From assembly GCA_944384985.1 (NCBI GenBank), contig CALWVM010000003.1, positions 1 through 64,000 on the forward strand: DNA of 64,000 nucleotides. The letters run 5' to 3'. The position numbers and the translations under genes are program-made. Positions 8,023 to 60,421 of the stretch are shown piece by piece. This stretch comes from an uncultured Clostridia bacterium. GTDB taxonomy: Bacteria; Bacillota; Clostridia; Oscillospirales; Acutalibacteraceae. The notes under the pieces were generated by a model, which ran no database searches, was not told the DNA's origin, and worked only from the letters and a program-made list of their open reading frames with translations. How positions within the stretch are numbered: the stretch's first letter is position 1; each line of letters starts with the position of its first letter.

Positions 8023-11000
8023 TTAAAACAAAGAGATCTGCGCGGTTTTCGGCATATTGCCGAACGCGCCGCATTTGTCGAGCATTTCAATGACGCTCTT
8101 GCCCGCCTTTGCACGCCGTGCGAAATCATCCACCGAAATGAACGGGCCCTCGCCATCGCTGCGCGCCGTTTCGAGCGGATATGCCGCGCTGTCGCCGATG
8201 CCCGAAAGCGCCGAGAACGGCAGGCGGATCTTGCCATCCTCAATGGTGTAAGCGGTCGCTTTGGATTTGTAAACGTCCACGCCGAGAAGCTCGACCCCGC
8301 GCGCCATCATCTCATTGACGACCTGCATGGCGGTGTACTGCTCCTTTTCCTTGGCGGTTGCGGACTTGTCCTTGATCTTGGCTTTGAGCGCCTGCAGCCG
8401 CCGGCGCACAGCCTCATGCCCCTGCACGACGACCTCGGCGTCGAGATCTCCGCCGCGCACGGTCAAAAACGCCGTGTAATACTCGAGCGGGCGGTAGATT
8501 TTATACCATCCGAGCCGCAGCGCCGCGATGACATAGGCGGCGGCGTGGGCTTTCGGGAACATGTACTTGATCTTGCGGCAGGAATCCATATACCAATCCG
8601 GCACATTGTGCTCGCGCATGGCTTCTTCCGCGCCCTCAGGGAAGCCGACTTTCGCGACGATACCCTTACGGGTCTTTTCCATGATGTTGAACGCCATGCT
8701 CGGTTCAAGCCCTTTGTGCAGCAGGTACGTCATAATGCTGTCACGCGTACCGATGACCTCGGAAATCGTGCAGACATTATTGTGGATCAGCTCCTGCGCG
8801 TTGCCCGTCCAAACGTCCGTGCCGTGGGAAAGACCCGAAATTTGCAGCAAATCGGCAAAGGTTTTGGGCTGCGCCTCGAGAAGCATCTGGCACACGAAAG
8901 ACGTGCCCATTTCGGGGATGGACAGCGTCCCCGTCGGCCAATCGATATCGTCTTCTGTTACGCCCAGTGGTTCGGGGCTCGTGCAAAGACGGACAATCTG
9001 CGGGTCGCAAACATCCACATCCATAACGTTGATGCCCGTTAGATCCTCCAGATGCTTATAAAGCGTGGGCACATCGTGCCCGAGGATGTCAAGCTTTAAG
9101 ATTGTGTCGTGCAGGGAGTGGAAGTCAAAGTGCGTGGTTTCCATGTCGCTGCCCACGTCGTCGGCGGGGTATTGCACGGGCGTGAAATCCCAGACGTCAA
9201 AATTGCTCGGCACAACGACCATGCCGCCCGGGTGCTGCCCCGTGGTGCGTTTGACGCCCGTACAGCCGTCCACCAGGCGCTGTTCCTCGGCGCGGTTGAC
9301 GTGCAAGCCGCGTTCCTCAAGATAATTCTTTACAAAGCCGTAAGCGGTCTTATCCGCGACAGTGGCGATGGTGCCCGCCTTAAAGACATTTGCAGAGCCG
9401 AACAGCTTTTCCGTGTAGCGGTGCGCTTTTCCCTGGTATTCGCCGGAGAAGTTCAGGTCGATATCAGGCGCTTTGTCGCCGTGGAAGCCCAAGAACGTTT
9501 CAAACGGGATCTCATGCCCGTCACGCACCATGTCCGTACCGCAGTGCGGGCAGTTCTTTTTCGGCATATCAAAGCCCGAACCGTATTCGTTGTGCGTATA
9601 GAATTCGGAATAGCGGCATTTTGGGCAGCGGTAATGCGGGGCTAAGGGGTTGACCTCGGAAATCCCCGCCATGGTTGCGACGAACGACGAGCCGACCGAC
9701 CCACGCGAGCCGACATGGTAGCCGTGTTCTTCGGAATCCCACACCAGTTTTTGCGCGATGATATACAGCACCGCGAAGCCGTTTTCAATGATTGAGTCGA
9801 GCTCGCGGTTCAGGCGCGTTTCCACAATTTCGGGGATCTTGCCCTCAAATTCGTACCATTCTTTCGCCTTGTTCCAGCAGATCTCCCGCAGTTGCTCTTC
9901 CGACCCCGGAATGGACGGCTGATAGGTGCCGTCGGGGAACGGGCGCATGACCTCGACCATGTCGGCGATGCGGTTCGGGTTTTCGATGACCACTTCGCGG
10001 GCGGTCTCTTCGCCGAGATACTGGAATTCGGCGAGCATTTCCTCCGTGGTACGGAAGAACAGCGGCGCCTGGTGGTCGGCATCGGAAAAGCCCTGCGCCG
10101 CCATTAAAATCTCGCGGTATTTCGCGTCCTCCGGGTCGATAAAGTGCACGTCGCAGGTCGCGACCACAGGCTTGCCGAGACGGTCGGCGATGGCGATGAT
10201 CTTGCGGTTGACGTTTTCAATATCCGCTTCGCAGGTGATTTTATCAAACTCCCGGTTGCGCTCGGGATTTTTCGCGTTCGGGTCAGAGTGGGCGGCGATC
10301 ATGAAGCGGTTGTTGCCCGTGGGCTGGATCTCCAGATAGTCGTAAAAATTCGCGATCTCCAAGATCTCCTCTTCGGGTCGCTCCTCGAGCACGGCGCGGT
10401 ACAGTTCGCCCGCCTCGCACGCCGAGCCGAGGATTAAGCCCTCGCGGTGCTTGATGAGTTCCGATTTGAGCGTGCGCGGCCGCTTGTAGAAATATTTGGT
10501 GTTGGAAAGCGAAATGAGCTTATACAGATTTTTAAGCCCGGTCAGGTTCTTCGCCAAAATGATCTGGTGGTACGAGCGCAGCTCCTTGAAATCTTTGCCC
10601 GGCTCTTTTAAGTCGTCCACAAAATAGGATTCCACGCCGTAGATGATCTTGATCTTGCCCTTCGCGGCGTTCATCGCATCGGGGAACGCCTGCACGCAGC
10701 CGTGGTCAGTGATGGCGACGGCCTTGTGCCCCCAGCGGATAGCGCGCTCCACCAGCGTTTTTGCGGGCGTCATGCCGTCCATTTGGGACATGTTGGTATG
10801 CAGATGCAGCTCCACGCGCTTTTCGGGGGCGTTGTCCTCTTTCTCAATTTTTTCGGTCATGCTCACGGCGCGCGGGTCGATGATGTAATCGCGCTTGAAA
10901 GAATCGAACTTCACGTTGCCGTGCAGCAGAATATGTACGCCGTTTTTGAGCTTTTCGAGCAAAGCCTCACTCTGTTCAATTTTCACGATCATCGAAATGG

Positions 11001-11859
11001 GGAACGAATAGCTGCCGTCGGTGATATAAAAATTGATGATTTTATGCCTGCCCTTTTTGCTGGTACGCTCCTCGAAGCTGAACACACGCCCCCAAACCGT
11101 CACGGGAATCTCATCCTGCTCGGTTTCAGGCAGCTCGATGTCGGCAATGCGGATCGGTTCGCTGCGGATGATGTTGCCGAAAATGGGACGGACGCTTTCG
11201 AGATAATAGGGGATGCCCTCTTTTACGATATGTTCGCGCGGGGGCTCGTTTTCCGATGCTTTTTCCGACTTTTGCACCTTTGCGCCCTTGCCGTATTTCT
11301 GCTCGTTTGCCGCCGCAGCGCGGGCGGCGCGGTCGCGCGCGTCGATGCTCTTTTGCGCGTCTTGCAGGGACTGCGCCACATCCACCTGCGCTTCCCGAAG
11401 CTGCACGGACGGCTCTGCATCAAAGCGTTCGCGCAAAACACCACGCAGCGTTTCGGCAAAACCGCCGCGTTCGAGGATCTCTTTACCGCCGTGGTGCAGC
11501 GTCACGCAGATCTCGTCGAGCGAAATATCCCATTCGGCGTCATCTAAAAAACCGTTGGCAACGGCGACGCGTTTTTTGAGATACGCAGTCAGTTCCGGGG
11601 CATAAGCATCATCCAGCTGCGCGCGGTCAAATCGCGGTAAAAATTCCACCTGCACCGTATCGCCGAGCGACGCGGCGACACGCTGTGTGACGGCATCGAG
11701 CATGCGGGAAGACACCGGATGCGCAAAGCGCACCGTCACCGCAAGGTGACGGTGTTCGCCATCGTGTTCGATTTTCAAAACTTCCGCAGCCGTCAGCGCC
11801 GTTTCAAACGGTTCGAGCGACGCCCGGCAGTCGGGAAACAGGTCGTAAAATCGGGTCAT
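8023..11859 (-). CDS. polC: DNA polymerase III alpha subunit, PolC type, apparently without the exonuclease domain
   Basis: 1278 residues; the main replicative polymerase of low-GC Gram-positives (B. subtilis PolC has 1437). Domains in order: N-terminal region, OB fold about 235-335, PHP domain opening with RVELHLHTN (348-355) and AITDHG (382-387), then polymerase palm, zinc-binding CPKC/CPHC (745-748, 770-773), and the catalytic PDIDLNFSGEYQ (Asp799, Asp801). In canonical PolC a DnaQ-like exonuclease with a DVETTG motif is inserted in the PHP domain. Here IIYGVESYFVDD (405-416) runs within about 15 residues into SYHQIILAKN (429-438), and no DxE exonuclease motif is seen anywhere. The frame is intact, so this is a clean domain loss rather than damage. 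It is last in the pyrH-polC cluster, 24 bases after ispG, with an AAGGA ribosome site. Confidence 0.95.
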   Translation of the reverse strand: MTRFYDLFPDCRASLEPFETALTAAEVLKIEHDGEHRHLAVTVRFAHPVSSRMLDAVTQRVAASLGDTVQVEFLPRFDRAQLDDAYAPELTAYLKKRVAVANGFLDDAEWDISLDEICVTLHHGGKEILERGGFAETLRGVLRERFDAEPSVQLREAQVDVAQSLQDAQKSIDARDRAARAAAANEQKYGKGAKVQKSEKASENEPPREHIVKEGIPYYLESVRPIFGNIIRSEPIRIADIELPETEQDEIPVTVWGRVFSFEERTSKKGRHKIINFYITDGSYSFPISMIVKIEQSEALLEKLKNGVHILLHGNVKFDSFKRDYIIDPRAVSMTEKIEKEDNAPEKRVELHLHTNMSQMDGMTPAKTLVERAIRWGHKAVAITDHGCVQAFPDAMNAAKGKIKIIYGVESYFVDDLKEPGKDFKELRSYHQIILAKNLTGLKNLYKLISLSNTKYFYKRPRTLKSELIKHREGLILGSACEAGELYRAVLEERPEEEILEIANFYDYLEIQPTGNNRFMIAAHSDPNAKNPERNREFDKITCEADIENVNRKIIAIADRLGKPVVATCDVHFIDPEDAKYREILMAAQGFSDADHQAPLFFRTTEEMLAEFQYLGEETAREVVIENPNRIADMVEVMRPFPDGTYQPSIPGSEEQLREICWNKAKEWYEFEGKIPEIVETRLNRELDSIIENGFAVLYIIAQKLVWDSEEHGYHVGSRGSVGSSFVATMAGISEVNPLAPHYRCPKCRYSEFYTHNEYGSGFDMPKKNCPHCGTDMVRDGHEIPFETFLGFHGDKAPDIDLNFSGEYQGKAHRYTEKLFGSANVFKAGTIATVADKTAYGFVKNYLEERGLHVNRAEEQRLVDGCTGVKRTTGQHPGGMVVVPSNFDVWDFTPVQYPADDVGSDMETTHFDFHSLHDTILKLDILGHDVPTLYKHLEDLTGINVMDVDVCDPQIVRLCTSPEPLGVTEDDIDWPTGTLSIPEMGTSFVCQMLLEAQPKTFADLLQISGLSHGTDVWTGNAQELIHNNVCTISEVIGTRDSIMTYLLHKGLEPSMAFNIMEKTRKGIVAKVGFPEGAEEAMREHNVPDWYMDSCRKIKYMFPKAHAAAYVIAALRLGWYKIYRPLEYYTAFLTVRGGDLDAEVVVQGHEAVRRRLQALKAKIKDKSATAKEKEQYTAMQVVNEMMARGVELLGVDVYKSKATAYTIEDGKIRLPFSALSGIGDSAAYPLETARSDGEGPFISVDDFARRAKAGKSVIEMLDKCGAFGNMPKTAQISLF

Positions 11860-11883
11860 GCTTATGTTCCTTATCGATATGCC

Positions 11884-12936
11884 TTATAATTTTTCAATTT
11901 CCTGTAATAATGTATCAACGATTTCCGATTCGGGGACTTTTCGCAAAATTTCGCCGTGCCGGAAAATCAGGCCGCAGCCGTCGCCGCCCGCCACGCCGAT
12001 GTCCGCTTCGCGCGCTTCGCCGGGTCCGTTGACCGCACACCCCATCACCGCGACGGTAATGGGCTTTTTGCAGCCGCGCAGCGCTTCCTCCACCCGGTTT
12101 GCAAGCGAAATCAGGTCGATTTTCGTACGCCCGCAGGTCGGGCACGAGACGATTTGCGGGCAGTCGGTTTTCAAGCCCACCGCTTTGAGAATGTCAAAGC
12201 CCGCCGCGACTTCGCGCACGGGATCGGCGGTCATGGACACGCGGATGGTGTCGCCGATGCCATCTAAGAGCAGCGCGCCGATGCCAGCCGCGGATTTCAC
12301 GAGCGCCATATGCTCCGTGCCTGCTTCCGTCACGCCGAGGTGCAGCGGGTAGTCACACAATTCGGCAATGCGCCGGTAGGCTTCGACCATGCGCCGGACG
12401 TTGGAGGATTTGATGGAGATGACGATGTCGTCAAAATCAAAGCGTTCCAAAAGCGCGGCGTGTTGGAGGGCGCTTTCACAAAGCGCCTCGGGCGTGGGCG
12501 AGCCGTATTTCGCAAGCAGATCTTTTTCGAGCGAACCGGAGTTGACGCCGATGCGGATCGGGATCCCCTTTTGCCGGCAGGCGTCCGCCACCGCCTTGAC
12601 GCGGTCGGACGAGCCGATGTTGCCGGGGTTGATGCGGATCTTATCCGCCCCCGCCGCCACACTTTCGAGCGCGCATTTGTAGTCAAAGTGGATGTCGGCG
12701 ACCACGGGGATGGAGACCGCCTCTTTGACCGCCGCAAGCGTGCGTGCCGCTTCCAAATTCGGCACGGTCAGACGCACCATTTCACAGCCCGCCGCCTCCA
12801 GTTCCTTTGCCTGGCGCACATTGCCCGCCGCATCTTCCGCGGGGACATTGAGCATGGACTGCACGCTGACGTGTGCACCGCCGCCGATTTGCAAATTCCC
12901 GGCTTTGACCGCCTTGGATTTTCTTCGTTCTGCCAT
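11884..12936 (-). CDS. ispG: 4-hydroxy-3-methylbut-2-enyl diphosphate synthase
   Basis: 350 residues from the ATG at 12936, which has AGGGTG upstream and starts 10 bases after the rseP stop; an upstream in-frame start at 12963 would overlap rseP. It is the [4Fe-4S] enzyme of the MEP isoprenoid pathway that makes HMBPP. Cluster-binding Cys are visible in CPTCGR and MGCAVNGPGEA, and the N-terminal TIM-barrel has SVQSMLNVPAED and ADIHFDYK. It lies with dxr and uppS, so the cluster supplies both the isoprenoid units and the lipid carrier. Confidence 0.95.
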   Translation of the reverse strand: MAERRKSKAVKAGNLQIGGGAHVSVQSMLNVPAEDAAGNVRQAKELEAAGCEMVRLTVPNLEAARTLAAVKEAVSIPVVADIHFDYKCALESVAAGADKIRINPGNIGSSDRVKAVADACRQKGIPIRIGVNSGSLEKDLLAKYGSPTPEALCESALQHAALLERFDFDDIVISIKSSNVRRMVEAYRRIAELCDYPLHLGVTEAGTEHMALVKSAAGIGALLLDGIGDTIRVSMTADPVREVAAGFDILKAVGLKTDCPQIVSCPTCGRTKIDLISLANRVEEALRGCKKPITVAVMGCAVNGPGEAREADIGVAGGDGCGLIFRHGEILRKVPESEIVDTLLQEIEKL

Positions 12937-54002: not shown

Positions 54003-54031
54003 TTGACTTTGCATGAAATTTTTGCTATACT
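54003..54031 (+). promoter_or_regulatory. Promoter of the SCP2/aminotransferase/transketolase operon
   Basis: TTGACT (54003-54008), 17-base spacer ending TGC, TATACT (54026-54031), the extended -10 type. An inverted repeat TTTGCA/TGCAAA (54008-54013, 54031-54036) flanks the spacer. Confidence 0.8.
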
Positions 54032-54037
54032 GCAAAT

Positions 54038-54057
54038 ATAGTTTTCGCACAAACTAT
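54038..54057 (+). promoter_or_regulatory. Perfect dyad at the operon's transcription start
   Basis: ATAGTTT, 6 bases, AAACTAT. It begins at the predicted +1 and is where a repressor would block initiation. No regulator gene lies beside it. A further imperfect hairpin (about 54060-54103) fills the rest of the 80-base leader. Confidence 0.55.
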
Positions 54058-54119
54058 TTATTTCGGTTGGCTGCTGTAAAATCCGCTTTCGGCAGCCGAA
54101 ACGCAAAGGAGGAATTCCA

Positions 54120-54881
54120 TTGACCGATTCAAGAACAATGGCGTATGTCAACCTGTATGCGGTTCTCGGTACGCTCGAAAACCTGTGCGCGCTGGACACC
54201 AAAGCAAAAGAGATCCTTTACGAGCTTAAAAAGCCAGTCTCCATCTGCTTTGACGTCAAAGGCGGCCCCACGGCGACGATCAAATTCACCTGCAAGGGCT
54301 GCCGCATGGAGGACGGCAAGCAGCCGCACGACATTTTGATCCCGTTTTCCTCCTGCGAAAAATTCAATGGGATGATCGACGGCACCGTCACCCCCATCCC
54401 CGTCAAGGGCTTTACGAAAATCGGCTTTCTGCTGAAGACCTTCGTGGCACTCACCGACCGCCTGACCGAGCTTCTCCGCCCGAGCGAAGAGAACCTCAAA
54501 GACCCTGCGTTCTTTGAACTTTCCACGGTGCTGACCTTCTATACCATCGCCGTGGCGCTTGCGCAGATCGGCAACCAGGACGCAGTCGGGCGCGCCAGCG
54601 CTTCCTATATGCTCGACGGCGACATTGCGTTCCTCATCAAAGACGGTCCCGCCGCTACGCTGCGTGTGAAGGACCACCGCCTCCTTGCCATCAAGAAAGC
54701 GCCGGAAAAGCCGCGCGCGATCATGCAGTTCGATTCGCTGCAGCTTGCGAACGACCTGTTCAACGGCAAAGTCAACGCGATGGAATGCATCGGTCTTGGC
54801 ACGGTGGAGATCCGCGGGATGCTTTCCATGGTGGACAACATGAACCGCATCCTTGACCGGGTTGCATTGTACTTAGCGTAA
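54120..54881 (+). CDS. Tandem SCP2-like protein A
   Basis: 253 residues from a TTG at 54120, seven bases after AAAGGAGG. By eye it is two copies of one fold. Residues about 39-120 (CFDVKGGPTATIKF, then FNGMIDGT and LTDRLTELL) align with about 166-252 (AFLIKDGPAATLRV, then FNGKVNAMEC and NRILDRVALYL). The pattern matches the SCP2 sterol-carrier fold, which binds fatty-acyl or other hydrophobic ligands in a groove. No signal peptide, so cytoplasmic. First gene of the operon; the last gene encodes another tandem-SCP2-like protein. Confidence 0.7.
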   Translation: MTDSRTMAYVNLYAVLGTLENLCALDTKAKEILYELKKPVSICFDVKGGPTATIKFTCKGCRMEDGKQPHDILIPFSSCEKFNGMIDGTVTPIPVKGFTKIGFLLKTFVALTDRLTELLRPSEENLKDPAFFELSTVLTFYTIAVALAQIGNQDAVGRASASYMLDGDIAFLIKDGPAATLRVKDHRLLAIKKAPEKPRAIMQFDSLQLANDLFNGKVNAMECIGLGTVEIRGMLSMVDNMNRILDRVALYLA

Positions 54882-54895
54882 GGAGGGACCTTCTC

Positions 54896-56164
54896 ATGAG
54901 CAAATTTCCGGAATACAAACACGACAAAAGCCATGAATATTTTAACCGCGCCATCAAGGTGATCCCCTCGGGCATTTACGGGCATCTCGGTCCCGGCGAG
55001 GGGCTTTGGGTGCCGGTCTCGAAATGGCCGTTTTTCTCGGAAAAGGCGCAGGGCACCTATTTCTGGGATGTGGACGGCAACAAATACATTGACTTCATGT
55101 GCGCCTACGGCCCGAACGTGCTCGGCTACAACGACCCCGACGTGGACGCGGCGGCACTCAAGCAGCTTAAACTCGGCAACTGCACCACCTCGCCGTCGAA
55201 GGTCATGGTGGAATGCGCCGAAAATCTGGTAGATACCATCGCTTCGGCGGACTGGGCGTTCTTTGCGAAGAACGGTTCGGACACCACCACCCTCGCGGTT
55301 ATGGCGGCGCGCGCGCATACGCACAAGAAAAAAATGTTCTTCTTGAAGGGCTATTACCACGGCGACTTCCAGTGGGCACAGAAGGTGGACTATCCCGGTA
55401 TTCTGCCCGAGGATGTCGCGAACAACGTGGTCGTCCCGTGGTTCAATCTTCAGGCGCTCGAAGACGCCTATAACGCCTGCGACGGCGACGTGGCGGGTCT
55501 CATCGCGCAGCCTTACGACCACGGCAATTTCAAAGACAACGAAGTTGCTTCCAAAGAATATTGGCAGGCGGTGCGCAAATTCTGCGACGAAAAGGGCATG
55601 GTGCTCATTTTCGACGACGTGCGCACGGGCTTCCGTCTCGATTTGCAGGGCTCTGACCACTACTACGGCATCAAAGCCGACCTCATCTGCTTCTGCAAGG
55701 CGCTTGCCAACGGCTACAATATGTCGGCGCTTTGCGGCGGCGAGCATATGAAGAGCACCGTTTCGGGCATCACCTATACGGGTTCGTACTGGATGAGCGC
55801 TGTCCCGTTTGCCGCGAGCATCGCGTGCATCAACAAGATGAAAAAGCTCAACACCCCCAAGATGTTCCGCGAAATGGGCACGAAGCTCACGGACGGCTTC
55901 AAGGCCGCGGCGGCGGAACACGGGTTTGACCTTGTGGTTTCGGGTGAGCCGGCGCTCTTTTATCTGCGCATCGCCAACGATGACAGCCTGATGCTCCATC
56001 AGGAGTGGGTCGCTGAGTGCGTCAGCCGCGGGCTGTTTTTGGCGTCGCACCACAACCACTTCATGAACGCCGCCGTCACCGACGACGACATCAAAAAGGC
56101 GATCGAGATCGCGGAAGATGCGTTCGGCGTCGTTGAAAAGCGGCATCCGGAACTCAAGGGCTGA
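54896..56164 (+). CDS. Class-III PLP aminotransferase, glutamate-semialdehyde aminomutase-like
   Basis: 422 residues; AAGGAGGG eight bases before the ATG. N-terminal VIPSGIYGHLGPGEG and YFWDVDGNKYIDFMCAYGP are typical of the GSA-aminomutase branch. The PLP-site segment reads LIFDDVRTGFR, where most relatives have DEV; the Schiff-base Lys is in CKALANGYNMSALCGG. It should move an amino group to or within an aldehyde or keto compound. It is not HemL by context, since no tetrapyrrole gene is nearby. Its position between an SCP2-like gene and a split transketolase suggests it works on a sugar-derived carbonyl, which is inference. Confidence 0.85.
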   Translation: MSKFPEYKHDKSHEYFNRAIKVIPSGIYGHLGPGEGLWVPVSKWPFFSEKAQGTYFWDVDGNKYIDFMCAYGPNVLGYNDPDVDAAALKQLKLGNCTTSPSKVMVECAENLVDTIASADWAFFAKNGSDTTTLAVMAARAHTHKKKMFFLKGYYHGDFQWAQKVDYPGILPEDVANNVVVPWFNLQALEDAYNACDGDVAGLIAQPYDHGNFKDNEVASKEYWQAVRKFCDEKGMVLIFDDVRTGFRLDLQGSDHYYGIKADLICFCKALANGYNMSALCGGEHMKSTVSGITYTGSYWMSAVPFAASIACINKMKKLNTPKMFREMGTKLTDGFKAAAAEHGFDLVVSGEPALFYLRIANDDSLMLHQEWVAECVSRGLFLASHHNHFMNAAVTDDDIKKAIEIAEDAFGVVEKRHPELKG

Positions 56165-56220
56165 AAAACAGGCTTGTTTAGCGGCACGCGCCGCAGCAAT
56201 ATAAACCAGGGAGGAAAAAT

Positions 56221-57099
56221 ATGCAAAGAGCACCTTTGACCAAGGACGAGTGGCTGGCGCTGGAGAAAAAGGCGAACGAGCTGCGCCACCTCTGCTTACA
56301 GACCACGGTTTGGGCTGGCAGCGGCCATATCGGCGGCGGCATGAGCGTCATGGACATTTTGACCGTTATGTATCACCGCTATCTCAACATCAAGCTGGAC
56401 GACCCAAAATGGGAAGACCGCGACCGCTTTATTCTCAGCAAGGGCCACGCGGGCATTGCGTATGCCCCCGTTTTGTGCGACCTCGGGTGGAACGATCCCG
56501 AGCAGCTCAAGACCTTCAACCTGACGAACTCCAAAATGGGCATCCACCTCGATTCCAATAAAGTCGTCGGCGTGGACGCTTCCACGGGGTCTCTCGGCCA
56601 CGGCATCCCGATCGCTGCCGGTACGGCAATCGCCGCGCGGGTCCTTGGCAAGGATTATACAACCTATGTCGTCACGGGCGACGGCGAACTGGACGAAGGC
56701 TCTAACTGGGAGGGCCTGATGACCATCCACCACTACAACCTCACCAACTGCATCACCATTGTGGACCGCAACCATTACATGATCGACGGCGACACCGAAG
56801 ACGTGATGAAGCTCGAGCCCCTGCCCGACAAATTCACTGCGTTCGGGTTCAACACGATCGTCTGCGACGGTAACAACATCGTGGACCTCTGCCGCGCCAT
56901 CGACGCCGCGCACGCCTGCACCGAAAAGCCGAGCGTGATCGTGGCGCAGACCGTAAAAGGCGTCGGCATCAAGCTGACGGCGGGCAACTACAAGTGGCAT
57001 TACGGCGCGATCGACGAGGATATGGCGAAGGTCGCCGCAAAGGATTTGGATGAATACAGCGCCGAGCGTATTGAACGCTGCGGAAAGGAGTTTGCGTAA
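56221..57099 (+). CDS. Transketolase N-terminal subunit (ThDP-binding half)
   Basis: 292 residues, the PP domain of a split transketolase. The thiamine diphosphate motif is GDGELDEGSNWEG (153-165) with Asn in the right place, and the conserved His are in SGHIGGG (His36) and SKGHAGIAY (His76). It pairs with the next gene, whose ATG overlaps its stop by one base (TAATG). Such split pairs often serve specialised pathways rather than the core pentose phosphate cycle. Confidence 0.92.
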   Translation: MQRAPLTKDEWLALEKKANELRHLCLQTTVWAGSGHIGGGMSVMDILTVMYHRYLNIKLDDPKWEDRDRFILSKGHAGIAYAPVLCDLGWNDPEQLKTFNLTNSKMGIHLDSNKVVGVDASTGSLGHGIPIAAGTAIAARVLGKDYTTYVVTGDGELDEGSNWEGLMTIHHYNLTNCITIVDRNHYMIDGDTEDVMKLEPLPDKFTAFGFNTIVCDGNNIVDLCRAIDAAHACTEKPSVIVAQTVKGVGIKLTAGNYKWHYGAIDEDMAKVAAKDLDEYSAERIERCGKEFA

Positions 57100-58109
57100 T
57101 GGCTGGAGGATTTGTTTACAACGTCATCGAAACCCCCGAGCTTTCCACCTCGGAGATCTACGGAAAAACGCTGGCGGAGCTCGCCAAAGAACATAAAGAG
57201 ATCGTCGCGGTCACAGCGGACCTTGCCACCTCGACAAAATTGCAGGACTTCACAAATGCCTGCCCCGACCGCGTGTTCAACGTCGGCATTGCCGAACAGA
57301 ACATGCTGGGCGTTGCGGCCGGTATGGCGCGCGCGGGGCTTGTGCCCTTCGCTTCGACGTTCTCCGTGTTCGCTTCGCTGCGTGCGGCGGACCAGCTGCA
57401 CACCGACATCTGCTATCAGAACGTCAACGCCAAGATCATCGCCACGCACTCGGGCACTTCGTTCGGTCAGGCGGGTTCCACACACCACGCCATCGTCGAT
57501 TTGGCTGTGACGCGTGCCATGCCGAACCTGACAGTCATCTGCCCGGCGGACGGCTACGAGACTGCAAACGCGGTCAAGGCGGCATATGAAAACTACGGCC
57601 CTTACTACATCCGCATCAACCGCGGCTTCGACCGTGTGCTGTATGACAATGAGGATTACGGGTTTGAAGTCGGCAAAGCGGTGGAAGTCCACCCCGGCAC
57701 CGACATCACCGTCATCGCCTGCGGTTCGTGTGTGTTCCAGGCGCGCGAGGCGGCGAAATTCCTCGATAATGCCGACGGCTTAAAGGTCCGCGTACTCAAC
57801 ATGCACACCATCAAGCCCATTGACAAGGAAGCCATTCTCAAAGCCGTGCAGGAGACCCGCCGCATCATCACCGTGGAGGATCACAGCGTGCTCGGCGGGC
57901 TTGGCTCCGCAGTCGCAGAGGTCGTCGTGGAATCCGGCAAAGGCTGCGCATTCAAAAAGCTCGGCCATCCCGACAAATTCGCCCCCATCGGGCTGCATGA
58001 GGACATCATGTCCATCGTCGGCATCGACGCCAACGGCATCATCGAAGCCGTGCGTGAAGTCATGCACAAAGACTTCGAGCTCGACGACGACTGGGAAGAC
58101 GAGGTCTGA
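57099..58109 (+). CDS. Transketolase C-terminal subunit (pyrimidine-binding half)
   Basis: 336 residues: Pyr domain plus C-terminal domain. The catalytic Glu lies in NVGIAEQNMLGVAAG, with THHAIVDLAVTRAMPN and VTVEDHSVLGGLG further on. Together with the preceding subunit it makes a full two-chain transketolase that moves two-carbon ketol units between sugars or aldehydes. The stop is followed 35 bases later by the second SCP2-like gene. Confidence 0.92.
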   Translation: MAGGFVYNVIETPELSTSEIYGKTLAELAKEHKEIVAVTADLATSTKLQDFTNACPDRVFNVGIAEQNMLGVAAGMARAGLVPFASTFSVFASLRAADQLHTDICYQNVNAKIIATHSGTSFGQAGSTHHAIVDLAVTRAMPNLTVICPADGYETANAVKAAYENYGPYYIRINRGFDRVLYDNEDYGFEVGKAVEVHPGTDITVIACGSCVFQAREAAKFLDNADGLKVRVLNMHTIKPIDKEAILKAVQETRRIITVEDHSVLGGLGSAVAEVVVESGKGCAFKKLGHPDKFAPIGLHEDIMSIVGIDANGIIEAVREVMHKDFELDDDWEDEV

Positions 58110-58144
58110 TTTTCCCTTGCAGTACCGAAAGGAGCGTGAAAGTT

Positions 58145-58951
58145 TTGCATACAAAAGAAGAACTGTATTCCAATAAGATCTTTTTCAATGCCGCGCTGCC
58201 GCTGGTCAAAGTCATTGCCCACGACGTGCCGTCTTTGAAAAAGCAGTTTGCAAAGGTCCACGCCGTCATTCAGGTCAGCGCCCTTGACCCGGACGCGGAA
58301 GGCGGCAAGGTCGGGATGCACTTTGTCGTCAACGGCGACGAATGGCTTGTGCACCTCAACAAAGTGGACCCCCGCCCCCATGTGGAGCTGGAATTCAAGA
58401 GCATTGAGGCGATGAATGCTTTCTTTAAGGGCAAAATCGGCCCTGCCACACTGCCGAAAATGCGCGGTGTAGTCAAGCACTTCGGCGCGTTCAAGGCGTT
58501 CTTGATGACGCTTCTGAAAATGGCTTCGCTGCTCGGCGCGACGGAAGCCCCGAAGGATGAAGCGACCAAGGAGCTTATGGTCAAGTGCTTCTTCTATCTG
58601 CTGTCCTCCGGCATCAGCCAGTTGAACAAAATGGGGCACGAGGATATCCACGACTGGACCTCCAAGAGCCCGGACCGCGTCTATGCGTGGGCGGTCAACG
58701 GGTATCCGCAGATTTCGGCATATCTGCGCATCAAGGCAGGCAAATCGAGAGCGGGCCGCGGCGAGTACAAACGCGCCATGCCGTTCTTTACGCTGCGCTT
58801 TGACAGTCTCGACAGTGCACTGGGTATTTTACTCGGCACCGATGACATGCTGGAAGCCGTAAAACAGGGCCGCCTGATTATGGACGGCGCGCCCGAATTC
58901 GGCGGACAGCTGGGCACCTATATGCTCGAAGTTGCCGCGCTGGCAAAATAA
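58145..58951 (+). CDS. Tandem SCP2-like protein B
   Basis: 268 residues from a TTG at 58145, nine bases after GGAG; a GTG at 58136 is in frame but only one base from the ribosome site. Like protein A it reads as two SCP2-like halves. Residues about 55-130 (GMHFVVNGDEWLVHL, then FFKGKIGPATL and GVVKHFGAF) and about 180-268 (VYAWAVNGYPQISAYLRIK, then DDMLEAVKQGRLIMDG) show the beta-sheet, helix and GRLIMDG-type end of SCP2. Cytoplasmic. It ends the operon; a hairpin follows 14 bases later. Confidence 0.68.
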   Translation: MHTKEELYSNKIFFNAALPLVKVIAHDVPSLKKQFAKVHAVIQVSALDPDAEGGKVGMHFVVNGDEWLVHLNKVDPRPHVELEFKSIEAMNAFFKGKIGPATLPKMRGVVKHFGAFKAFLMTLLKMASLLGATEAPKDEATKELMVKCFFYLLSSGISQLNKMGHEDIHDWTSKSPDRVYAWAVNGYPQISAYLRIKAGKSRAGRGEYKRAMPFFTLRFDSLDSALGILLGTDDMLEAVKQGRLIMDGAPEFGGQLGTYMLEVAALAK

Positions 58952-58964
58952 ACACAAAACAAAA

Positions 58965-58992
58965 GGGCGCACTGTTTTCCGACAGTGCGCCC
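58965..58992. terminator. Hairpin terminator after the SCP2-like operon
   Basis: A perfect 11-bp stem (58965-58975 with 58982-58992). The T run is on the minus side; on the plus side only the stem strength supports termination. Confidence 0.6.
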
Positions 58993-59311: not shown

Positions 59312-60421
59312 ATGAAGCGAAAAGGCGTTGGCAAAAAGATCGGGAAAGTGATCGCCATTGTGCTCGCGTGCGCGATCGTTGTGGGCGTAGCGGGCTATTT
59401 CATCGGCGGTGTCAACACCCCGCGCGCCGCAACGGGCTATCGCGCGTTTTTGGCAAACGCAACGGAATATATCGAGCGCGGCGTGCGCGGAGCTGTAAAA
59501 AGCGATAATGATTACACGGGTTACATGGAACTTGCCGCAATCCCGGAAGTGGAAAACGGCTATGTACCGCAGGGCTATTGCTATTGCGAAACACTGAACA
59601 GCCATGTGATTTCGTATTATCACGACGATGAAGCGTCCGTTTTGAGCTTTGTGGACGCTGCCACGGGAGAGCGCACCAAAACGCTGCATTTGCAAAACGC
59701 CGACGGCACGGACTTCACCGGCCACGCGGGCGGGCTTGCCGACAGCGGCGAATACCTGTATCTGTGTTCCGGGAACAGCGTCTACCGTTTTTCGATTGCG
59801 GAAACGGATGCGCTCGCGGACGGCGGCACGCTCGTGCTTGATAGCTTCGTGGACACGGACGTGCGCTGCTCGTATATCCATTGCGACGGGAAATACCTGT
59901 ACGCCGGGGAGTTTTACACCTATTATCCTGACGACCGCTACGGCACAGACAAAACGCACCACATGCAGATGACGATGACCGAGATCCACTTCTCGCGCGT
60001 GAACGCCTATGCGCTTGAACCGCTGAACGCCGCTTTCAATGCCGGGAACGGGTCCGTGCCCATCCCCGCGTTCGCCTGCACCACGCCGAACCTTGTGCAG
60101 GGCATGGCGCGATTGCCCGACGGCGGCTTTGCTTTAAGCACCTCCTATGGGCGCAATACGGACTCGCACCTGCTTTTGTACACAGACGTCACGAAGCGCG
60201 AACCCGCCTATTATCTGACGGTGCCGGGCGGAGACGTGCCCGTTTATGCCTTGACAAACGACGCACAGACCGCATCCCTGCGCCTGCCCCCGCTTTTGGA
60301 GGGTGTGGACATAAAGGACGGCGCGGTGACGGGTATTTTCGAATCCGGCGCGCAAAAATACAGCGACGGCAAGTTCCCGCTCAATCAAATCTGCGCATTC
60401 GCAGAAAATACAGCCGCCTAA
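59312..60421 (+). CDS. Secreted or membrane-anchored beta-propeller-like protein
   Basis: 369 residues; AAAGGAG seven bases before the ATG. Basic start and one hydrophobic helix (about 11-32) make it exported, probably anchored. The rest is beta-rich with repeated strands such as VISYYHDDEASVLSFVDAATGERTKTL and GEYLYLCSGNSVYRF, which suggests a propeller of about six blades by periodicity. No catalytic motif is evident. I do not recognise the family. It is a single gene closed by a strong terminator. Confidence 0.65.
   Translation: MKRKGVGKKIGKVIAIVLACAIVVGVAGYFIGGVNTPRAATGYRAFLANATEYIERGVRGAVKSDNDYTGYMELAAIPEVENGYVPQGYCYCETLNSHVISYYHDDEASVLSFVDAATGERTKTLHLQNADGTDFTGHAGGLADSGEYLYLCSGNSVYRFSIAETDALADGGTLVLDSFVDTDVRCSYIHCDGKYLYAGEFYTYYPDDRYGTDKTHHMQMTMTEIHFSRVNAYALEPLNAAFNAGNGSVPIPAFACTTPNLVQGMARLPDGGFALSTSYGRNTDSHLLLYTDVTKREPAYYLTVPGGDVPVYALTNDAQTASLRLPPLLEGVDIKDGAVTGIFESGAQKYSDGKFPLNQICAFAENTAA

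Follow-up and report, generated by a model that had tools for sequence, protein, structure and literature searches.

The DNA analysed here is a 64,000-nucleotide stretch from an uncultured Clostridia bacterium (contig CALWVM010000003.1; the whole stretch is referred to as the window), and its positions 54120-58951 raise the question of what an aminotransferase and a split transketolase have in common that they should lie together between two SCP2-like proteins. Five open reading frames (ORFs) on the + strand are confirmed in the order S1-AT-TkN-TkC-S2 with gaps of 14, 56, -1 and 35 bases, as in the initial annotation. The answer proposed here, for and against which the case appears about evenly balanced, is that the operon encodes a pyridoxal phosphate (PLP)- and thiamine-dependent route for long-chain sphingoid-type amino-diols. 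The proposal starts from the gene order, the predicted folds, the linkage of the modules, the relationship of AT to FumI and the substitutions in the transketolase active site. The five genes are as follows:

54120..54881, + strand: S1, a tandem SCP2-like protein of 253 residues and partner of the aminotransferase, with a TTG start and AGGAGG upstream
54896..56164, + strand: AT, a class-III aminotransferase of the FumI type, 422 residues, with K268 in CKALANGY
56221..57099, + strand: TkN, the thiamine-diphosphate-binding half of a split transketolase, 292 residues
57099..58109, + strand: TkC, the pyrimidine and C-terminal half of the split transketolase, 336 residues
58145..58951, + strand: S2, a second tandem SCP2-like protein of 268 residues and partner of the transketolase, with a TTG start

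Pfam assigns AT to Aminotran_3 (E 2.4e-39), TkN to Transketolase_N (1.5e-45) and TkC to Transket_pyr and Transketolase_C (4e-44 and 5.7e-27, respectively).

The products of both end genes had been read as internally duplicated SCP2 folds that resemble each other, and structure prediction with a fold search upholds this reading. Models of S1 and S2 were computed by AlphaFold2 on purpose-built alignments, with a predicted local distance difference test score (pLDDT) of 93.8 and a predicted template modelling score (pTM) of 0.90 for S1, and 89.7 and 0.87 for S2. Foldseek searches against the PDB match both models to UbiJ, human and insect SCP2, AF1534 and the SCP2 domain of alkylsulfatase, with best E values of 3.9e-5 for S1 and 1.1e-4 for S2 and with template modelling scores (by target length, against SCP2 proteins) of up to 0.72 and 0.62; two of the alkylsulfatase matches are structures with dodecanol and decane-sulfonate bound. 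The SCP2 element pattern is present twice in each model, and both proteins are predicted to be tandem SCP2 folds. The duplication of S1 is backed by the sequence (N half against C half, hhalign E 1.5e-8), while that of S2 is seen in the predicted fold and not in the sequence (hhalign E 0.67). A comparison of S1 with S2 half by half gives E values of 5.9e-8 and 6.9e-7 in register and of 0.54 and 0.0021 crosswise, and the whole profiles match with 97.9% probability.

At the sequence level the fold is nearly invisible. The gathering cut-off of the SCP2 family PF02036 (21.3 bits) is reached by neither protein: S1 has a match below threshold at residues 163-246 (E 0.0037, 18 bits), S2 has no Pfam match, and the remote S2 members compared with PF02036 score 15 and 20.2 bits, with a third giving no match. 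Likewise, no SCP2 chain was matched by either protein in a sequence-level search of the PDB. Pfam by itself would miss S1 and S2 as SCP2 proteins. A profile match of S1 to RecR in the PDB (E 0.0071) was dropped, as the confident S1 model fits SCP2 folds.

Among solved structures, AT is nearest to 6hbs (FumIS), an aminopentol aminotransferase of the FumI type (E 2.2e-90, 306.8 bits), which we take to be the same as, or close to, FumI of Sphingopyxis sp. MTA144; the next solved chain, at 155.7 bits, is the best glutamate-1-semialdehyde (GSA) aminomutase. AT and 6hbs are identical at 156 of 395 aligned residues (39%) and have the motifs MCAYGPN, KNGSD, ANGY and TGS-W-SAVP-AA in common. Among the 70 ATs with long matches, each position of MCAYGPN, KNG.D and TGS.W.SA is conserved in 61-70, and K268, which by homology would be the PLP lysine, is conserved in all 70. 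The NCBIfam cut-offs for HemL are not reached by AT (TIGR00713, 188.2 vs 527.3 bits; NF000818, 202.7 vs 398 bits), and the VNSPVR of GSA aminomutase is aligned to IYGHLG, which places Gly at Arg32, presumably the residue that binds the substrate carboxylate. The labels GSA aminomutase, guanitoxin GntE and PbfA were dropped, their scores lying far under the cut-offs among the 25 of 68 families listed, and the first of them because the FumI-type chain scores twice as high as the best GSA aminomutase in the PDB. The description of the enzyme as GSA-like in the initial annotation must therefore give way to FumI, and AT is, judged by its sequence, closer to the FumI type than to the other solved class-III aminotransferases. 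According to PMC2933618, FumI of Sphingopyxis sp. MTA144 removes the 2-amino group from hydrolysed fumonisin B1, with pyruvate as the acceptor; PMC9858248 names the 6hbs enzyme FumIS and reports three further transaminases that are 61.9-74.2% identical to FumIS and FumIB.

Among solved structures, TkN and TkC are closest to another split transketolase, that from Carboxydothermus hydrogenoformans (6yaj, 6yak). Residues were numbered by a computed mapping to E. coli TktA, and the window enzyme was compared with those encoded beside S2 elsewhere. The resulting 31 S2-linked loci (G numbers denote genomes and L numbers denote loci) are the window, 23 genome-contig loci, G060, G096, G143, G311, G314, G350 and G494, and three added TkC sequences (G001, G033, G035) bring the set to 34. 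The window TkC has Ala125 for D469, Phe122 for L466 and Ser18 for R358, and the window TkN has Asn100 for R91. Ala at D469 and Phe at L466 are found in 34/34 S2-linked TkC, and Asn at R91 in all 31 S2-linked TkN checked. R358 is replaced by Ala in 16 and by Ser in 12 of the 34 loci and is Arg in the other 6; the first 31 loci account for 14, 11 and 6 of these, respectively, and G001, G033 and G035 for Ser, Ala and Ala. The residues H26, H66, H100, E411, H461 and H473 are kept in 31/31 S2-linked loci and R520 in 34/34; the column of E. coli H261 fell in an alignment gap. For comparison, the best other TkC was taken from 28 of 47 genomes carrying S1 and AT, together with the second copy of the window genome, and Asp is found at D469 in 27 of these 29 TkC and Arg91 in 26 of 28 TkN. 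This second split transketolase of the window genome has the canonical Asp and Arg. A 60-row tree places the S2-linked TkC on one side of a branch with weak support (77/46), perhaps on account of L119 and L140, two long rows.

In the E. coli enzyme, we take D469 to contact the alpha-hydroxyl and R358 and R520 to bind the phosphate. The S2-linked transketolase has, as these substitutions indicate, a naturally altered aldehyde site, and the Ala at D469 is suggestive, though not proof, of an altered aldehyde preference. Engineering points to the same positions: D469T is termed a propanal-accepting mutation of E. coli transketolase in PMC10787763, and mutations of R358, S385, D469 and R520 are reported to raise activity on aromatic aldehydes in PMC7661550.

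The distribution of the genes reveals that the operon is two modules, S1 with AT and the transketolase (TK) with S2. The counts rest on tblastn, which was adopted because greedy ORF picking at loci with S1-AT only had also retained antisense ORFs. A scan of genome contigs with S1 gives 76 loci. Apart from two Treponema, four further spirochaetes and a single member of the Alteromonadaceae, they come from Clostridia, many of which are gut or rumen genomes by title. A cultured relative, Oscillibacter valericigenes An890, carries S1-AT (L052). AT adjoins S1 in 74 of the 76, the two exceptions (L049 and L067) lying on contigs that end within S1; at L068 the S1-AT gap is 176 bases. TkC and S2 are present at the S1 locus in 23/76, and in a 24th (L059) the contig begins within S2. 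The window gene order is found in 20 of the 23 joined loci, and the other three (L050, L056, L058) have TkN-TkC-S2-S1-AT. Additionally, S1 is present in 35/36 genomes of the window's genus and in 0/23 genomes that each represent a different other family of the order; a wider draw added G418, also of the order, to the genomes with S1.

Elsewhere the two halves of the operon part company. Genomes were searched for S2 at 47 of the 76 S1 loci, and S2 was found in 2 of these 47 S1-AT genomes (G060 and G096), each with a TkC of the same clade beside it (81% and 60% identical, respectively); the other 45, which may be incomplete assemblies, have no S2 and no TkC of the S2-linked clade, the next best being 46% identical. 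In an even draw of 391 genomes of the class (cut-offs E <= 1e-75 for AT and E <= 1e-95 for TkC), S1 is found in 3 and AT in the same 3, S2 in 5 and S2-clade TkC in the same 5, and the window genome alone has both modules. Because S1-AT and TK-S2 occur apart, in 45/47 genomes and in this pairing, a single five-gene unit was rejected. The dedicated system of SCP2, aminotransferase and split transketolase that had been suspected is supported, with linkage in other genomes as counted above, but as two modules and not as one unit. At the loci with S1-AT only, no third gene common to all lineages was seen. No S1 match and no remote S2 match was found in plasmids, and no S2 match in viral contigs.

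Some further features were seen at these loci. L077, which is counted among the 74, carries at 10001-10507 a short fused S1-AT remnant (S1 residues 1-127, AT residues 368-413), the result of a deletion or an assembly fault. Two of the spirochaetes, and the Alteromonadaceae genome as well, have regulators of one cluster close to S1-AT (L069:9148-9822, TetR by Pfam; L075:8059-8733; L076, after AT), with a short-chain dehydrogenase/reductase (SDR) oxidoreductase next in L076. A glyoxalase/VOC-family gene lies directly 3' of S2 in three spirochaetes (L071:14745-15266, L074:14744-15259 and L075:14775-15293; Pfam on L071 and L075), and one might guess that it is an epimerase.

A tandem SCP2 partner for each enzyme fits insoluble substrates, and the steps of the proposed route may be written as follows. 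AT, with S1 holding the lipid, would deaminate a 2-amino-1,3-diol at C2, with a keto acid (by analogy with FumI, pyruvate) as acceptor, and would yield a 1,3-dihydroxy-2-ketone. This ketone would suit a transketolase as donor because CH2OH-CO-CHOH-R is a ketose head on a fatty tail. The split transketolase, with a small non-polar residue in place of the alpha-hydroxyl contact and with S2 holding its lipid partner, would hand the two carbons of the ketol head on to an aldose phosphate; the fatty aldehyde thereby freed would go on to an alcohol or aldehyde dehydrogenase; the Ala at D469 fits because the leaving aldehyde would be aliphatic. The substrate, the direction, both reactions and the roles of S1 and S2 are what we infer. 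Cleavage seems likelier than synthesis, and two carbons of a membrane lipid would then enter the pentose phosphate pathway. In contrast to the idea that the operon builds and aminates a short sugar-derived carbonyl, as first suggested, the handling of a long-chain ketol seems the likelier function.

Relatives of the TK-S2 module extend this proposal. In five genomes (L149 of G143, L148 of G311, L150 of G314, L151 of G350 and L164 of G494) the order is TkN-TkC-S2, a zinc alcohol dehydrogenase and MerR, with no S1-AT at the locus, and a genome-wide search of G143, G311, G314 and G350, G494 lying outside it, found neither S1 nor a FumI-like AT. The alcohol dehydrogenase has best NCBIfam scores far under cut-off, the other four copies being 74-87% identical to that of G314, and the MerR-type regulators are 39-64% identical to that of G314, with the G350 copy truncated by the contig end. 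An aldehyde dehydrogenase comes next in the operons of G314 and G494 (78% identical to each other); none follows MerR in G143 or G311, and the contig of G350 ends before that point. The G314 enzyme matches class-3 aldehyde dehydrogenases of the PDB (best 6k0z, 2.4e-141), among them 4qgk (3.9e-122), which bears the name fatty aldehyde dehydrogenase, and its presence beside TK-S2 fits the leaving aldehyde. The entry step would accordingly vary by lineage, being an aminotransferase (amine to ketone) or an alcohol dehydrogenase (alcohol to ketone). That the transketolase cuts or builds the lipid chain at C2-C3 of a sphingoid-derived ketol, with SCP2 carriers and such an exchangeable entry step, is a tentative generalisation for which the chances lie somewhat short of even.

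Two other genes were noted near these operons. About 260 bases past the aldehyde dehydrogenase of L164, at 9751-12665, are a glycyl-radical enzyme, nearest to the PFL2/glycerol dehydratase type but far under the cut-offs for the enzyme, and its activase. In L150, a glutamate 2,3-aminomutase (1195-2571; 661.8 bits against a cut-off of 650) precedes the TK-S2-alcohol dehydrogenase operon at a distance of about 470 bases.

Neutral/alkaline ceramidase (PF04734) was searched for in 26 hand-picked genomes and 14 controls. The 26 are 15 five-gene genomes (G000, G001, G006, G018, G024, G033, G035 and G499-G506) and 11 others (G060, G085, G087, G096, G103, G143, G311, G314, G418, G427 and G494). A full-length ceramidase is present in 4/15 of the former, 0/11 of the latter and 0/14 controls. 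The ceramidases score 300-405 bits; the spirochaetes G500, G501 and G502 (L071/L074/L075) have two copies each, and G506 (L058) has a single copy. A further five genomes, G143, G311, G427, G503 and G504, give matches that are weak or partial, of which three exceed the cut-off. Within a few kb of the spirochaete ceramidases (G502, G500/G501) lies, next to iron-containing alcohol dehydrogenases, a conserved protein of about 190 residues (L171:5804-7581, L174:14746-17636, L175:15058-17996), which is SCP2-like by eye only and has no Pfam match in the two copies scanned.

Several observations weigh against a sphingoid-base route. The difference between 4/15 and 0/11 is weak, as the sample was chosen and is confounded by kinship; all seven full-length ceramidases lie on contigs other than that of the operon (L058, L071, L074, L075), and no ceramidase was found in the window genome or in any of the 7 genus members searched. 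The window genome also has no class-3 aldehyde dehydrogenase (best 27% identity), and the best NCBIfam match of the G314 enzyme is benzaldehyde dehydrogenase, below cut-off. The substrate of AT is deduced from a relative that is 39% identical, and AT must have a use without an S2-clade transketolase because 45/47 S1-AT genomes have neither S2 nor such a TkC. Natural D-erythro sphingoid bases have their C3 hydroxyl in the configuration opposite to that of xylulose 5-phosphate, so that the transketolase would need an altered stereospecificity or an epimerase. As for the aldehyde site, many of the 34 S2-linked loci are closely related, and six of them still have Arg at R358. Moreover, the Carboxydothermus split transketolase, which has Asp at the D469 position and Arg at R358, accepts phenylacetaldehyde and cyclohexanecarboxaldehyde according to PMC7661550. 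Loss of the Asp is therefore not needed for bulky aldehydes.

The same evidence was weighed for other explanations. Run in reverse, the transketolase would add a sugar-phosphate ketol to a fatty aldehyde and AT would aminate the product, giving a sphingoid-like base with no need of serine palmitoyltransferase. In principle each of the two reactions can run either way, and the window genome has neither class-3 aldehyde dehydrogenase nor ceramidase, but the ceramidases of some relatives and the aldehyde dehydrogenase of two TK-S2 operons look catabolic, and no lipid-assembly gene was noticed by eye near the operon, whose neighbours were not individually scanned; synthesis is given a low probability but stays a serious rival. 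A similarly low probability is given to two lipid modules with like carriers that act on different substrates, an amine for AT and another ketol for the transketolase, and that are joined for convenience. The separate occurrence of S1-AT and TK-S2 across genomes speaks for this, as does the alcohol dehydrogenase that takes the place of AT after S2 in G143, G311, G314, G350 and G494. However, the modules stand together at 23/76 loci, where two gene arrangements occur and Clostridia as well as spirochaetes are represented; moreover, action of AT on an amino-diol would, by the chemistry we envisage, yield a ketone with the very head group that a transketolase requires.

Two remaining explanations are far less probable still. 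A FumI-like detoxification of fumonisin-type sphinganine analogues in feed would agree with the nearest solved relative of AT and with the many loci that are by title from gut or rumen metagenome-assembled genomes, but hydrolysed fumonisin B1 (by its name in PMC2933618) lacks a C1 hydroxyl, so that its 2-ketone is no ketol donor for a transketolase, and spirochaetes and a member of the Alteromonadaceae have the system too. It is no more credible that an ordinary pentose-phosphate transketolase and a haem-type GSA aminomutase are simply unrelated neighbours: although the Pfam and NCBIfam names are those of transketolase and GSA-like families, the canonical Asp and Arg reside in the second split transketolase of the genome, D469 is Ala in 34/34 S2-linked loci, and the GSA aminomutase scores are far under cut-off among the matches listed. 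The handling of sphingoid-type amino-diols by cleavage is the preferred reading.

The signals flanking the operon are as follows:

54003..54031, + strand: sigma-70-like promoter, TTGACT-17-TATACT with TG before the -10 element, 10/12 matches
58965..58992, no strand assigned: inverted repeat 3' of S2 with an 11-bp stem and a 6-base loop, terminator-like, with a T run on the - strand only

A promoter scan of the stretch gives 5 sites against 3.0 +/- 2.0 in shuffles, and because this count is barely above the shuffles, 54003-54031 is only plausible as a real promoter; the single promoter of the initial annotation is present as a site, with weak significance. For S2, the mechanical ORF list offers an alternative start at GTG 58136 (271 residues, TkC-S2 gap 26). 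Among the candidates, AGGAG at 58130-58134 is well spaced for TTG 58145 only, and several S2 relatives carry Met at this column, for which reasons the gap of 35 is preferred. A divergent ORF of 936 residues, which by its look we take to resemble SecA, lies upstream of the operon, and the downstream ORF of 369 residues (59312-60421) has no Pfam match at E 0.01.

The initial annotation knew of no described pathway with this gene combination, and a search of open-licence PMC papers agrees, as no description of the route or of either module was found; in a review of unusual sphingoid bases (PMC11765627), the words aminotransferase, transaminase and deaminat- are absent. If the proposal is true, gut Clostridia and spirochaetes would have an oxygen-independent breakdown (or synthesis) of sphingoid bases that needs neither sphingosine-1-phosphate lyase nor serine palmitoyltransferase, and host, dietary and bacterial sphingolipids would be tied to central sugar metabolism. 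Tandem SCP2 proteins would gain an assigned role, and the transketolase would have by nature the activity on aliphatic aldehydes that enzyme engineering produced through mutation of the same residue.

A comparison with known systems reveals both likenesses and differences. The sphBCD genes of Pseudomonas aeruginosa likewise serve bacterial handling of sphingoid bases (PMC11893366), but they differ in comprising, according to the part of that paper available, a periplasmic oxidase, a cytochrome c and a predicted PLP aldolase; the word aminotransferase is absent from the text, and no transketolase or SCP2 is mentioned in that part. FumI (6hbs) is, like the 39% identical AT, a class-III PLP enzyme, and the accessible parts of PMC2933618 and PMC9858248 mention no SCP2 partner or transketolase for it. 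UbiJ, AF1534 and the SCP2 domain of alkylsulfatase have the same fold as S1 and S2, but the single-domain matches among them align over about 110 residues, whereas S1 and S2 are tandem. The Carboxydothermus transketolase is also split into N and C chains, but the window enzyme has Ala and Ser in place of its Asp and Arg. In the engineered E. coli D469T the same Asp is lost, whereas here the loss is natural, is to Ala and extends to 34/34 S2-linked loci.

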